From the NCBI GenBank assembly GCA_005792545.1, contig SXRM01000257.1, positions 1-62,952 of the forward strand: 62,952 bases of DNA. Direction: 5' to 3'. Numbering within the stretch: position 1 is the stretch's first letter; each line of letters starts with the position of its first letter. Origin of the DNA: Pseudomonadota bacterium. Its GTDB lineage: Bacteria > Myxococcota_A > UBA9042. This document shows, piece after piece, positions 36,817 to 45,725 of this stretch. The notes under the pieces are model-generated. The model saw only the letters and a program-made list of their open reading frames with translations. It ran no database searches and was not told where the DNA came from. The position numbers were made by a program, and so were the translations under genes.

Positions 36817-38994
36817 TCACGCGCCGCGCCGACGCAGCGCAACCAGCATACCCAAGGCCAGCACCATCCACCAGCCGTGTCCGGTGCGCCCGCCTGGCAC
36901 TGCCGAACAGGACGAGTCGGCGGCAGGCGGCGTGTAGAACGGACTCGCCGTATCCGGGTTCGCCTCGCCTGCCGCGCCACCCGTGCGCTGGACACCAGCG
37001 CCGTCCTTGCCAGGGCTGGTTCCGTTGTCGGCGCCAGGCTTGCCAGCGTCCTTGCTGCTGGTCGCAGTGGTTTCCGGGCTGGAACTTGCGGTATCGGCAG
37101 AGCGACCAGCGCTGGTTTCCGTGCCGCGACCTGCGCCGGCGTCTTCGGCTGCGCCATTGCCCGGCTCAGCAGCCGTGTCGGCCGTCGCATCGGGTCCACC
37201 GCTTGCGCCCGCATCGCCGCTGATCGCCTGGCATGCCCCGGCCTTGCAGATGTTGCCGACGCCGCAGGTCTTGATCTTTTTGGCGAGAGTGCCGCATTCG
37301 TCGGTCTGGTACAGGTCGTTGCCCTTGCAGGTGGTGCCGACCGGGCTGCCGCCTTCGTGGGTGCACGCGCCGTCTTTGCAAGCGTCGGCCGTGCACGGCT
37401 TGAAGTCGTCGCACGGTAGCGGATTGCCCGCGCACGCCAGATTGACGCAACTGTCGTTGTCGGTGCAGGCGTTGCCGTCGTCGCAGGCGCCGGCCAATGG
37501 TCCAAACACGCATGCGCCAGCGGCACAGGCGTCGCTGGTACACGGGTTGGCGTCGTTGCACAGCTTGGGCGTGCCCTTGCAGGCGCCCGTCGCACAGCTA
37601 TCGCCGCTCGTGCACGGATCGCCGTCGTTGCAGCCGGCCTGGCTGGGCACGTGCAGGCAAGCGCCAGCCTTGCAGCCGTCGGTGGTGCACGGGTTGCCGT
37701 CGTCGCACTGGACCAGCGTTCCCGCTTTGCACGCACCGGCTGCGCACTTGTCGCCCGTACTGCAAGCGCTGCCATCGTCGCAGGGCGCTGCGTTGGGCGC
37801 GTTGCTGCACGCCCCGGTCTTGGGGTTGCAGCTGTCGTCCGTGCACGGGTTGTTGTCGCCGCAGTTCTTGGCCTGACCTGTCGCGCACTTGCCAGCGCTG
37901 CACACGCCGCCACCCGTGCACGCGTTGCCGCTGCCGCAAGGCTTGCTGTTGGCGACCGACTTGCAGGCGCCCGTGACCGGCGTGCAGCCGTCGTCGGTGC
38001 AAGGGTTACCGTCGTCGCAGGTCTTGGCTACGCCGGCGCACTTGCCGCCGCCACACTTGTCGCCGCTCGTGCAGGCGTTGCCGTCGTTGCACAGCGTGGT
38101 GCTGTTGGTGTGGGTGCAGTTGCCGGTCTTGGCGTCGCAGCCGTCGCTGGTGCAGACATTCTTGTCGTCGCAGTTCTTGCTGGTGCCGCCCAAGCACTTG
38201 CCACCGGTGCACTTCTCGCCGGCGGTGCAGGCGTTGCCGTCCCAGCACACCGCCGTCGTGTTGGTGTGCGTACACTTGTTGGCGACGCACGCGTCCGCAG
38301 TGCAGGGGTTCAGGTCGTCGCAGCCAGCGGGGCAGCCCGTGGGAGGCGGCGGCGGGTTGCCGTTGACGCACGCCGCGACCATGCCGATGTACTTGTCCCA
38401 CGGCCAGTACTTGCCAGGGTCGGTATGGGTCTGGTTGGGCAACTCCACGTGGCCCTTGATGTTCGCTTTGGTGGGCGCGAGCTTCCACTTCTTGATGAGG
38501 TAGCACGACAACTTGGCGCTGGCATCGAGCAACTGCGGCGTGACCCAGTTGGCATCGCTGACAAAGCCTTCGTGCTCGATGCCGATGGTGTGGCCATTCT
38601 CGCTGCCGACGTGCCAGGCGATGTCTTCTTCTTTGACCAGCTGCACGACTTCGCCCTTCTTGGACACGCAGTAGTGCGCCGACACCTTGGCTTTGGGGTT
38701 CTGCATCCAACTGACGGCGCCGGCAAACGAACCCTGAGTGGTGTGCACGACGATAATCTTAACCTGACCGGGCTTACGCGAGGCGTTCACATAGTTGGCG
38801 GTCGGCTTCCAAATCGCCGGACCGTACTCCGCCGCGCCGACGCCAGCGCCGAGCGTGCCGTACTCGTCGAGCGCCAGTTCGTTCGGCAGGCCCTCTTCCG
38901 GCTCTGGCAGACATGCATTCGCCGCCACCATGATCGCGACCAACAGCCCGCAGCGACCTGCGAACCGACCCAAATTCGCCGTGTTGCCTCGCAT
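36817..38994 (-). CDS. Paralogous amidase_2/PGRP with CDDGNxCT repeats and MYXO-CTERM-like tail
   Basis: VVHTTQGSFAGAVSWM...IAWHVGSENGHTIGIEHEGF...GHVELPNQTHTDPGKYW; start ATG at 38994. Confidence 0.87.
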   Translation of the reverse strand: MRGNTANLGRFAGRCGLLVAIMVAANACLPEPEEGLPNELALDEYGTLGAGVGAAEYGPAIWKPTANYVNASRKPGQVKIIVVHTTQGSFAGAVSWMQNPKAKVSAHYCVSKKGEVVQLVKEEDIAWHVGSENGHTIGIEHEGFVSDANWVTPQLLDASAKLSCYLIKKWKLAPTKANIKGHVELPNQTHTDPGKYWPWDKYIGMVAACVNGNPPPPPTGCPAGCDDLNPCTADACVANKCTHTNTTAVCWDGNACTAGEKCTGGKCLGGTSKNCDDKNVCTSDGCDAKTGNCTHTNSTTLCNDGNACTSGDKCGGGKCAGVAKTCDDGNPCTDDGCTPVTGACKSVANSKPCGSGNACTGGGVCSAGKCATGQAKNCGDNNPCTDDSCNPKTGACSNAPNAAPCDDGSACSTGDKCAAGACKAGTLVQCDDGNPCTTDGCKAGACLHVPSQAGCNDGDPCTSGDSCATGACKGTPKLCNDANPCTSDACAAGACVFGPLAGACDDGNACTDNDSCVNLACAGNPLPCDDFKPCTADACKDGACTHEGGSPVGTTCKGNDLYQTDECGTLAKKIKTCGVGNICKAGACQAISGDAGASGGPDATADTAAEPGNGAAEDAGAGRGTETSAGRSADTASSSPETTATSSKDAGKPGADNGTSPGKDGAGVQRTGGAAGEANPDTASPFYTPPAADSSCSAVPGGRTGHGWWMVLALGMLVALRRRGA

Positions 38995-39166
38995 GTGCCC
39001 CCCCTTTCGCCCCGACCCAACCGGCCCGACTGCCGTTTGGGTCGCAAGAGGATAACAGGCGCTGCAGCGATGCCATCCGAGCCATGCGTGCCCGGCGCCG
39101 ACGTGGGGTGCTTGCACCCCATCTAGTCAAGCCGCTAACTTTCAACAGGAAACTTCAGGACCGCTG

Positions 39167-40996: not shown

Positions 40997-43333
40997 TCAA
41001 GGCTGCTCGCCGGCACCGTCGTCCGAGTCAGCTTCCGGCGCCGGTTCGGGCAGACTCGGCGTGTGTTCCGCGTCACCCGGCGCAGGCTCGGTGGCACTGT
41101 CGTCGACCGGGGCGGTTTCGGCCTTCTTCTTGCGCTCGCGTCTTGGCTCCGGCAGCGGCGGTGCTTTGGGCGGGTGGCGCGCGAACCACGCGTCGGCGAT
41201 CTGTTTGGCGATGGGCGCGGCGTTGTGGCCGCCCGATCCGCCGTGCTCGACCAGCACGGCCACCACGATGTCCGGCGAGCGGTACGGTGCCCAGCCGACA
41301 AACCACGCGTGGTCGTTCTGCAACCACGCCGACAGGCGTGCCAGCGCTGCGGGATCCTCGCGCAGTCGTTCTGCCACATCTTTGCGGACCCGCTGCGGCG
41401 CCTGCGCGGTGCCGGTCTTACCGGCCATGTTGGCCAGCGCGGGTTGGCTGCCAAAAGCCGTGCCCCCGGGCTCGTTGACCACGGCGTACAGCATCTCTTG
41501 CAGCAGCGGCAGCGTTGTCTTGCGCAATTCGAGACGCCGCGGCGGGTCGCGGTTCGGCGCCACCAGCTTGCCCTGCGCATCCTCAAAGCCGGCCACCACC
41601 GTCGTGCGCGGCAGCCAGCCGCCGTTGGCGATGGCGGCGTACACCCGCGCCAGCTGCAGCGGCGAAGTCAGTACGTCTTTTTGGCCAACTGCGGTCGACA
41701 AGGCGAAGCCGGGGTAGTACCCGCCGGGCACGTGCTGCTTGTACCACTGAAGCGACGGCACCCGCCCTATCGTCTCGCGCAATTCGATGCCGGTCGGCTC
41801 GCCAAAGCCAAGCCTGCGCGCCCACGCCTCCAAACGGTCGATGCCGAGCTCTTCGCCGACGCGATAGAAGTACACGTCGCAACTGGCGCGGACAGCATCG
41901 TGCAAGTCGACCTCGCCGTGGCCGCGGCGGTTGTGGCAGTGAAAGCGGCGCCCGCCAAAGTCGTAGTGACCGTGGCATGTCTGCTCGGTTTTGGCCGTGA
42001 CGATGCCCTCTTCCAGGCCGGCGATGGCCGCGACAACTTTGTAAGTCGAGGCCGGCGGATAGCCGTGGATCGCCTTGTTGATGAGCGGCGCGTACGCGCT
42101 GATGTCGGCGAGCGGACGCGACTGCGGGGCGCGCTTGCCCGCCAGCGCGTTGGGGTCGAAGCTTGGCTTGGCGTACATCGCCAGCACGTGACCTGTCGTT
42201 GGCTCGATGACCACGGCGGCGCCGGCAAACACGTCTTTGAGCGCGACCTTGACGGCGCGCTGCAGCTCCAGGTCCAGCGTCAGCCGAACGTTGAGGCCCG
42301 CCGTGACCGGGCGCGGTCGCAGCGCCGCCACCAACTCGTCGAGGTCGGTCGCGGGCCCCTCGCCCTCGTTGCGCCGCACCAGCACCTGCTCGCCATCCAG
42401 GCCGCGCAATGCGCCGTCTAGCGCCGCCTCCAGCCCCGAACGACCCACGCGATCAGTCAAGCCGAACCGCGGAGGCGCAAACGGCAGGACCGGCGCCACG
42501 TCTTTGGGGTTGACGTAGCCGACATAGCCGATGACGTGGCTCGCCAGGTACCGAAACGGATACTCGCGCTGGATGTCGGCCACCACCCGCACTTCGGGCA
42601 GTCGATGGCCATTGGCGCGCAACACCGCAACCTCGTCGTTGTAGCTGCGGCGGCACAGCGGGCACTGCAAAATGTGGGTCTGCTTGCGCATGGCCTGGCC
42701 GTCGTACGGGCACTGGTCCGCGTCGGCAAAGTCGCGATCGCATGCGTGGCAGTGCCAGGCCTTACCGGCCGCCACCAAACGGCGCTGATCGAAAGGGCAG
42801 GTCTTGCGCGCCGGCACTGGCTCGAAGCCGCGCCCACAAGCGCTGCAGTGCCGATGCGGACGCTCGCCGACCAGCTCCAGGGGACTCGAGTCGTAGGGAC
42901 AGTGCGAGCTCACCAGGTCGCGGCGCACCAGCAGCGGCTTGCGCTTGCGCGGGTCCACGGGTCGATGCAGCTCGGTGTGCAGTTCTGCACGCTCGGTATC
43001 GCTCAGGTCGAGCAGGTACGACAGCGTATCGACGATGGTCGCGATGCGCTCTGGCTTGACGCGGTGAGTCAGGATTTCGACGCTGTGTGACTCGATGTTG
43101 CGCGCGACCACGGTGCCATCGGCGGCTTTGATCAAACCGCGCGGCGCCTGCGCGCGCACCTTGGACACGCGCTCGATGACGGCGTACTTCTCGTAGCGGT
43201 CGCCGCGGACTACCTGCACGATCACCAGCCGCGCGGCCAGGGCCAGCAGGCAAACTGCCCCCAGCGCCAGCGCCACCCGGTTGCGGGACCGAAAGCGCGT
43301 GGGCTCGTGCGAGTGGCCGATAGCGACGGACAT
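40997..43333 (-). CDS. mrdA: Penicillin-binding protein 2-type transpeptidase with Cys-rich insert
   Basis: SxxK STYK, SCD, KTG (MAGKTGTAQAP); RLVIVQVVRGDRYEKYA N-terminus; insert at ~42640-42905. Confidence 0.88.
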   Translation of the reverse strand: MSVAIGHSHEPTRFRSRNRVALALGAVCLLALAARLVIVQVVRGDRYEKYAVIERVSKVRAQAPRGLIKAADGTVVARNIESHSVEILTHRVKPERIATIVDTLSYLLDLSDTERAELHTELHRPVDPRKRKPLLVRRDLVSSHCPYDSSPLELVGERPHRHCSACGRGFEPVPARKTCPFDQRRLVAAGKAWHCHACDRDFADADQCPYDGQAMRKQTHILQCPLCRRSYNDEVAVLRANGHRLPEVRVVADIQREYPFRYLASHVIGYVGYVNPKDVAPVLPFAPPRFGLTDRVGRSGLEAALDGALRGLDGEQVLVRRNEGEGPATDLDELVAALRPRPVTAGLNVRLTLDLELQRAVKVALKDVFAGAAVVIEPTTGHVLAMYAKPSFDPNALAGKRAPQSRPLADISAYAPLINKAIHGYPPASTYKVVAAIAGLEEGIVTAKTEQTCHGHYDFGGRRFHCHNRRGHGEVDLHDAVRASCDVYFYRVGEELGIDRLEAWARRLGFGEPTGIELRETIGRVPSLQWYKQHVPGGYYPGFALSTAVGQKDVLTSPLQLARVYAAIANGGWLPRTTVVAGFEDAQGKLVAPNRDPPRRLELRKTTLPLLQEMLYAVVNEPGGTAFGSQPALANMAGKTGTAQAPQRVRKDVAERLREDPAALARLSAWLQNDHAWFVGWAPYRSPDIVVAVLVEHGGSGGHNAAPIAKQIADAWFARHPPKAPPLPEPRRERKKKAETAPVDDSATEPAPGDAEHTPSLPEPAPEADSDDGAGEQP
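42640..42905 (-). other. Triple zinc-ribbon-like insert within PBP2
   Basis: CPYDSSPLELVGERPHRHCSACGRGFE / CPFDQRRLVAAGKAWHCHACDRDF / CPYDGQAMRKQTHILQCPLCRRSY. Confidence 0.85.
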
Positions 43334-43616
43334 GGACACGCGGCGCCGCAATGGCGGCGGGCGAGGACTGTACACCGGGTCGCGATGCAGGCGAAGCGCT
43401 GGCCGCGCTCGCGGCCGGTGGAACACAGACGAGTCAAAGGCTTGCGCGAGCCGCCCTGCGCTCCGATGCGGCCGCCACCGCCCTTGACGCGCGGCCCCGG
43501 CATGTGGACGATCAACATCCCTGGCGTGTCCACTGGCCTTCTGCCGGTGCTCGCGACCCGCGCCTTACCACCACGGACAAAATGCCCGCGCCGCTGCCCG
43601 GGCTGAGGACATCCCG

Positions 43617-45725
43617 ATGACCACTCGATTTGAGCGTGCCCAGCGTTGGGCACTGGGCCTGGCCACAGCGACACTGTTCGCCGCCGCGCCCGTCCAAGCC
43701 GCGGTGCCCGCGACCGCAACGTTGGAAGGCGTGCTGACTTCGGCTGGCGGGGGTCCCGCGGCGGACGGCAACTACACGTTGACTTTGGCGGTCTACGCCC
43801 AGCAGACCGGTGGCACCGCGGTGTGGACGGAGACGGCGGCAGTGGCAGCCAAGGGTGGCCAGTTCGGCTGGCAGCTCGGCAGCAAGACGCCGCTTTCCGC
43901 AACGGCACTCAACCTGTCTGCCGCGTGGCTCGGCGTCACCATCGGCTCCGACCCTGAGCTCGCACGCCAACCACTGGGTTCTGCGCTCTACGCCCAGCGT
44001 GCGGCCGTCGCAGACAGCGTAGACTGCTCCGGGTGCATCAAAGCAGGGGCATTGGACGGGGCGGTGCTGCAGCCGTACGCCAAGGCCGCCGACCTCGGCA
44101 ACTACGCCAAAGCATCGGATTTAAGCGGCTACGCCAAGGCGAGCGACCTTGGCGGCTTTGCCAAGACCTCGGACCTCGACGCCTACGCAAAAGTGGCTTC
44201 GCTCGCCGCGGTCGCTGCCAGCGGCAGCTTCAACGACCTTAAGGACAAGCCGGCGCTGGCGGATGTCGCCAAGACCGGCAACTACGGAGACTTGCTCAAC
44301 AAGCCCGTCACGGCCAAAATCGGATCCAGCTGTGGCAGCGGTTTGGTTCTCAACGGCTTCAAGGCCGACGGATCGCTGGACTGTGGCCCACTGCAGGTGC
44401 CAGCCGACGCCATCGACGAGATCTCCAATGGCTTGATTTGGAATCAGTTTATCGACTCGGCGCCAGGCGGCACCGGCATCAAGATTCCCGATGGCTTGGG
44501 CGCTGGCGTCTCGGACAGCATTGCATTCCCCGACATCGGCCTTGCGCAGGCCATCTGGGTCGAGGTCGACGTTTTCAACTCCGACCTGTCGCACATCACA
44601 GTCGAGTTGTTCGGACCCGGCATGAGCGCGCCTTATATCCTGTACAGCAAAAGCAAGACCGGCCAGAAGCTCAAAGCCGCGTTCAACAAGGACACGGCCA
44701 TCGTCCAAGGCGACATGAACAAGGACTGGATCGGCAAGAACATCAAGGGCACCTGGTCGATTACCGTCAAGGACCCCGTGGACAACCAACTGGGCCCAAC
44801 GGTCGACGGTGACTTCTCTTGGTCGCTACATATCCAGACGCTGTCCAATAAGAAGGTCCAGATCAAGGGCAACCTGTTGGTCGATGGCAGCGTCAAGGTC
44901 GGCGCCGACAGCGCGGACTGCACGGCGCTCAACGCCGGCGCAATTCGCTGGACTGGCACCGTGTTCCAAGGCTGCAACGGCAAGGTGTGGACCGGGTTGC
45001 AGGGCGCCGACGGCAGTTCGCCCGGCTCAGCGGCGTTGACCTGCAAGACGTTGCACAAAGAGTTTCCCAACTTGGGCGACGGCACCTACTGGCTCGACCC
45101 CAACGGCGGCAGCGCGGGCGACGCCTTTCAGGCCCCATGTAACATGACGCGCGACGGCGGCGGTTGGACCATGGGCGTCAAGATGTGGTACCAGAACGGG
45201 ATGAACGGCACGACGGGCGCGGTCGGCAGCATCGGCGACGCGCTGCAACTCAAAGGCAACCCGTGGAAGTTGTCAGACACCCAGATCAAGGAGATCATTG
45301 GCACCGACAACAACTTTGACGTCATGTTCGACCAGGCGAACTACAACACCAGCTACTCATCTGGCAACTACGAGTACGCGGTGTTGTACAACTACACGGC
45401 CACTTGGACCTGGGCAAAAGTCGTGCCGGCTTCCAGCACCACGACCAGCGTCAAATCGTATCGCATCAGCGATCAGGCGGTTGCCTGGACCGGGAATTTC
45501 CAGTGCGGCGACGTCGGCGGCTGGGGCATCAACTGTTACAACATCACCGCTGGCAGCAACCCGCAAGGCGGCGCCGGTTGCAACATCAACATGGGCACAG
45601 CCAGCAACGGCGGTTGGCACCATCTCTACATGGCCGAATCCAACACAGACACGTACATCTACTTGTGCAACGGCCCACAGCACAGCTCCGGCCACAACAT
45701 CAACCACCGCTACTGGTTCAGGTAG
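43617..45725 (+). CDS. Secreted protein with YAKASDL repeats, proprotein-convertase P-domain and fibrinogen-like C-terminal domain
   Basis: P-domain: IKIPDGLGAGVSDSIAFPDIGLAQ...ITVELFGPG...GTWSITVKDPVDNQLGPTVDGDFSWSLHI; FReD-like: CKTLHKEFPNLGDGTYWLDPNGG...APCNMTRDGGGWTMGVKMW. Confidence 0.78.
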   Translation: MTTRFERAQRWALGLATATLFAAAPVQAAVPATATLEGVLTSAGGGPAADGNYTLTLAVYAQQTGGTAVWTETAAVAAKGGQFGWQLGSKTPLSATALNLSAAWLGVTIGSDPELARQPLGSALYAQRAAVADSVDCSGCIKAGALDGAVLQPYAKAADLGNYAKASDLSGYAKASDLGGFAKTSDLDAYAKVASLAAVAASGSFNDLKDKPALADVAKTGNYGDLLNKPVTAKIGSSCGSGLVLNGFKADGSLDCGPLQVPADAIDEISNGLIWNQFIDSAPGGTGIKIPDGLGAGVSDSIAFPDIGLAQAIWVEVDVFNSDLSHITVELFGPGMSAPYILYSKSKTGQKLKAAFNKDTAIVQGDMNKDWIGKNIKGTWSITVKDPVDNQLGPTVDGDFSWSLHIQTLSNKKVQIKGNLLVDGSVKVGADSADCTALNAGAIRWTGTVFQGCNGKVWTGLQGADGSSPGSAALTCKTLHKEFPNLGDGTYWLDPNGGSAGDAFQAPCNMTRDGGGWTMGVKMWYQNGMNGTTGAVGSIGDALQLKGNPWKLSDTQIKEIIGTDNNFDVMFDQANYNTSYSSGNYEYAVLYNYTATWTWAKVVPASSTTTSVKSYRISDQAVAWTGNFQCGDVGGWGINCYNITAGSNPQGGAGCNINMGTASNGGWHHLYMAESNTDTYIYLCNGPQHSSGHNINHRYWFR

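Follow-up and report, generated by a model that had tools for sequence, protein, structure and literature searches.

A class-specific zinc-ribbon-like insert in the pedestal of the elongasome transpeptidase PBP2 of uncultured Myxococcota

A PBP2 gene with an interrupted pedestal

The window (the whole 62,952-nucleotide stretch of DNA that was analysed) carries on its minus strand an open frame at 40997-43426, which encodes 809 amino acids from a GTG codon; the likely true start is the ATG of Met32, at 43333. The product scores 510.5 bits against TIGR03423 (pbp2_mrdA, a curated equivalog model with a cut-off of 455) and matches the Pfam families Transpeptidase (PF00905) and PBP_dimer (PF03717). 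An N-terminal membrane helix (residues ~50-73, 43208-43279, minus), seen in the sequence and as a helix in the AlphaFold2 model, is followed by the PBP_dimer pedestal (residues 93-355, 42362-43150, minus) and by the transpeptidase domain (residues 402-744, 41195-42223, minus), in which the catalytic motifs STYK, SCD and KTG (SxxK, SxD, KTG) are all intact, as an initial annotation of this DNA had read them. Judged by homology to PBP2, everything beyond the N-terminal helix is periplasmic. The full-length AlphaFold2 model matches PBP2 crystal structures, including that of the Helicobacter pylori PBP2-MreC complex (5lp5). With known PBP2/MrdA proteins (6tii, 6g9p, 8tj3, 7zg8, 5lp5) the protein shares the membrane helix, the pedestal, the transpeptidase motifs and, in its relatives, rodA and mreC as neighbours. 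It is a genuine elongasome PBP2 (MrdA), a central enzyme of cell elongation and a drug target.

Divergent from this gene, and upstream of it, lies a plus-strand gene (43617-45725) for a 702-residue protein with a match to the fibrillar-collagen C-terminal domain (COLFI, E 6e-10). The minus-strand gene at 36817-39117 encodes an N-acetylmuramoyl-L-alanine amidase (Amidase_2) that is exported and contains an extended series of Cys-rich repeats (Dicty_CTDC).

The pedestal is broken in its head subdomain by an insert of ~90 residues (residues 175-264, 42635-42904, minus), delimited by alignment with insert-less PBP2s and by the AlphaFold2 model. The initial annotation had placed here, at 42640-42905, an ~88-residue insert of three tandem units with nine Cys between ordinary PBP2 flanks, and this description was confirmed. 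The insert holds three CP[YF]D and three CxxC motifs, in the order CPYD, CSAC, CPFD, CHAC, CPYD and CPLC (first C preceded by H), with exactly nine Cys and six His. Unit 1 comprises C176-x2-D179 and C194-x2-C197 (42836-42901), unit 2 C210-x2-D213 and C226-x2-C229 (42740-42799), and unit 3 C239-x2-D242 and C255-x2-C258 (42653-42712), all on the minus strand. When the insert was shuffled 200,000 times, three CP[FY]D motifs arose in none of the permutations, and at least one in 981.

The 29 aligned PBP2s of other myxococcal families have the strand 'RRD[IV]T' immediately followed by the helix 'RDQVA'. The empty site shows that the flanks are ordinary PBP2 and that the segment is a true insertion, and it rules out a standard region of the enzyme. 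Profile alignment places the junction just before residue ~142 of Escherichia coli PBP2 (8tj3 numbering as printed). This corresponds to about residue 141 of Acinetobacter baumannii PBP2 (converted from construct numbering), inside the head subdomain, which spans residues 78-165 in that protein (PMC9974482). Neither the aligned PBP2 chains nor the 29 homologues from outside the class described below have such an array in the head subdomain, and no such insert is described in the open papers on PBP2, its pedestal and zinc ribbons that we searched. A search of the window's genome (~78% complete) found no paralogous array elsewhere, the best other match having an E value of 0.4.

The transpeptidase domain holds a separate, already known feature, a predicted SpoVD-type zinc site formed by C484, C497, H503 and C516 (41879-41977, minus; PMC9334274 and PMC9974482). 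Taking a C/D, C/D, H, C quartet around the SxN motif as the test pattern for a zinc-binding class B PBP active site, we found the quartet as C,C,H,C in all 46 PBP2s of the class and in 28 of 29 other myxococcal PBP2s. This is the form reported in PMC9334274 for Clostridioides difficile SpoVD and PBP3; the A. baumannii form is given in PMC9974482. In the zinc-binding class B PBPs so described (C. difficile PBP2, PBP3 and SpoVD, and A. baumannii PBP2) the site lies in the transpeptidase domain; the window's PBP2 has the pedestal array in addition, and the passages of those papers that we consulted do not mention such an array.

Predicted metal sites and fold

Among 27 intact inserts, 11 of the 12 ligand columns are invariant, including all those of units 1 and 3; the twelfth, the Asp of unit 2, is Asp in 24 proteins and His in 3, a plausible ligand swap. 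Each unit thus keeps four ligands (C, D/H, C, C) in 27 of 27 arrays. The other 78 columns have a mean majority identity of 56% (ligand versus other columns, Fisher p = 1e-9). The pattern extends to the members with a single ribbon, 13 of 13 of which have CPxD or its equivalent, 13-14 residues and then CxxC, and so retain the C,D,C,C ligands of the full arrays. All 14 rows of our alignment A1 gave a weak match to Zn_ribbon_6, a double zinc ribbon model of Pfam, and many of them matched other Pfam zinc models. AlphaFold2 predictions of the insert alone (21 sequences) had a pLDDT of ~85-91 over the array, with strands and hairpins between the two knuckles of each unit, and the insert kept a pLDDT of ~85-90 in the full-length model. 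Foldseek searches with the insert alone returned mostly zinc-binding domains (PriA, YfgJ, TFS4 and ribosomal proteins), though none of these matches was significant: the best E value was 0.022, short of a threshold of 0.001.

Ligand invariance, the Pfam zinc matches, the confidently modelled beta-rich fold and the weak structural matches to zinc domains together lead us to call the array zinc-ribbon-like, and it very probably binds metal. The earlier reading of three zinc-ribbon-like units in the periplasmic pedestal is therefore supported. That each unit holds one structural metal, probably zinc, with its three Cys and its Asp or His as ligands is a prediction strongly supported by the ligand pattern. 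Like the zinc ribbons of Zn_ribbon_6, the PriA zinc region and YfgJ, each unit is predicted to have a beta hairpin that links its two knuckles (CPxx...CxxC). They differ from these in having Asp (or His) as the fourth ligand, in standing three in tandem, and in their predicted extracytoplasmic location within the head subdomain of a wall enzyme.

Cysteines of an exported protein could instead form disulfides. VKOR, which serves disulfide formation, is present in 51 of the 52 class genomes (DsbB in none), so the envelope of these bacteria probably makes disulfides; the amidase at 36817-39117 is another Cys-rich exported protein in the window. However, three Cys per unit would be an odd and awkward count for disulfides, the Asp/His of the fourth position is conserved as strictly as the Cys, and the spacing is that of zinc ribbons, so that we regard disulfides in place of metal sites as most improbable. 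Metal-protected cysteines, as predicted here, would be noteworthy in an envelope that probably makes disulfides.

A similar repeat occurs in other Myxococcota membrane proteins (L132-L146), which end in C3D (CPxD) zinc-ribbon arrays and several of which have an exported N-terminal domain. They share with the PBP2 insert a repeat string of C-x2-C and an aromatic residue, then C-P-x-D and Leu. Their arrays, however, lie C-terminal to a membrane helix and apparently face the cytoplasm; they start with CxxC, whereas the PBP2 array starts with CPxD. The PBP2 array may derive from this C3D repeat.

Distribution and evolution of the insert

Within one uncultured class of Myxococcota, 46 of the 52 genomes matched a profile of the insert region. 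The profile was also run on a sample of 379 genomes from across the phylum; the matches from outside the class that we examined there were either short stretches of PBP2 flank or zinc ribbons belonging to other proteins, and none was a PBP2 insert. Scanning 85,462 species genomes for the motif [DG]LVS[TSN]xCP[YF]D, which picks out the three-ribbon form and would overlook inserts with one ribbon or decayed ligands outside Myxococcota, yielded 21 loci, mostly labelled as uncultured Myxococcales or Deltaproteobacteria. One locus of the scan (L040, CAMDBH010000014.1), from a metagenome-assembled genome labelled Klebsiella pneumoniae, duplicates the insert-bearing PBP2 of another locus (L009), and the label is likely that of a mislabelled bin. 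The site is empty in the PBP2s examined from outside the class, and the insert-bearing protein is a real, unusual and class-specific variant of a known enzyme.

The 46 scorable PBP2s of the class comprise 28 with three ribbons (27 of them fully visible), 13 with one ribbon, four with three units but decayed ligands, and one without an insert. In a tree built without the insert columns (a quick search in which several inner forks are open), the class forms one side of a branch with a support of 100 against the outgroup, and the one-ribbon members form a single clade with a support of 99. The most economical explanation is one gain at the base of the class, and the insert probably arose once. 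The single ribbon corresponds to the first knuckle of unit 1 and the last knuckle of unit 3. The ligand-decayed members sit in three places on the tree; all four proteins are hit in every unit, which fits sequential and nested pairing of the knuckles equally well, and they keep the ~90-residue insert. Their active-site quartet is intact, which indicates that the two sites are independent and rules out a general loss of zinc sites in these lineages.

These losses bear on the view that the array is a metal or redox switch, in which loss of zinc or oxidation of Cys would unfold the insert and turn cell-wall synthesis down. Nine Cys in an exported protein and the presence of VKOR in the class are in its favour, and the authors of PMC9334274 speculate on redox sensing at the active-site zinc of other PBPs. 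However, sensing could hardly be a constant role when the ligands of every unit were lost in three places of the tree while the insert stayed and the active-site quartet remained intact. A metal or redox sensor, proposed in the initial annotation, is accordingly weakened as the main role, and we consider it quite unlikely. Ligand loss with retention of the insert argues instead for a structural or docking element over an obligatory sensor.

Where pairwise dN/dS of the insert could be computed (eight close pairs), it was 0.016-0.148, similar to that of the head, linker and transpeptidase regions. The insert is under strong purifying selection, like the rest of PBP2, and these values rule out a neutral insertion. 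They also speak against a structural ornament that stiffens the head subdomain without any partner, since selection nearly equals that on the catalytic domain in strength and the insert is retained in most families of the class. Such an ornament would agree with the varying number of ribbons, the decay of ligands and the one loss. It would also agree with the class-wide invariants: beyond the ligands, only five positions (P, L, G, L, L) are invariant in the 27 inserts, all of them structural-looking, so that no class-wide contact surface is evident. On balance we find the ornament rather unlikely.

A proposed role in the elongasome

We propose that the insert forms an arm that serves as a docking surface for a periplasmic partner in the elongasome and helps to set the balance of RodA-PBP2, with zinc in a structural role, a reading to which we give an even chance. 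The metals would hold together a small and rigid arm, rich in beta strands, that extends outward from the head subdomain. This arm would dock MreC, the outer loop of RodA or a lineage-specific regulator, and docking would help to set the balance between the resting and active states of the RodA-PBP2 synthase. In H. pylori PBP2 the head subdomain and the swung-open anchor form the dock for MreC (PMC9974482, section 5), and MreC has been proposed to act on the pedestal so as to open RodA-PBP2 and activate it (PMC10257715). For a rigid, metal-pinned arm at the site of the MreC dock, an added docking surface would be the easiest explanation. The zinc would be neither catalytic nor obligatorily sensory: the repeated loss of ligands with retention of the insert suggests a structural aid rather than a signal. 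Counting against the docking reading, no class-wide contact surface is evident, the structural matches of the insert are weak, and the 13 one-ribbon members and the one without an insert indicate that the full array is inessential to elongation across the class.

In a further-reaching version, which we think rather unlikely, the arm would be a class-specific, zinc-assembled periplasmic device through which a partner or the availability of zinc gates RodA-PBP2, a regulatory input to the elongasome without counterpart in model bacteria. The ribbons might alternatively bind a substrate (peptidoglycan, lipid II or an outer-envelope polymer) near the synthase. Their inferred place in the periplasm, next to RodA and the transpeptidase domain, would suit this, as would the four to twelve His in the inserts of most members. 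However, the insert has no Pfam likeness to peptidoglycan-binding domains and no conserved binding groove was identified, making a substrate module very unlikely. The insert would also be an unusual example of tandem zinc ribbons that function outside the cytoplasm, in a group of organisms whose envelope probably makes disulfides. The class-wide insertion in the MreC-docking subdomain, with its states of zero, one and three ribbons and its ligand losses, amounts to a natural experiment on the control of the pedestal.

Two of the candidate partners, MreC and RodA, are encoded in the class. Family searches detected mreC in 46 of the 52 genomes and a rodA-like gene in every one; among the loci retrieved, rodA is a neighbour of this PBP2 in 43 and mreC in 29. 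In two genomes whose PBP2 has lost most of the insert ligands (L027 and L029), the outer loop of RodA that follows 'YQK.RV..W', near the conserved YQK/QA motif, is ~20 residues longer. This possible co-change of the RodA loop and the PBP2 ligands is a weak lead, representing one evolutionary event without statistical weight. In the window's own genome mrdA, mreC and rodA lie on separate contigs (C200, C373 and C191); most relatives keep them together.
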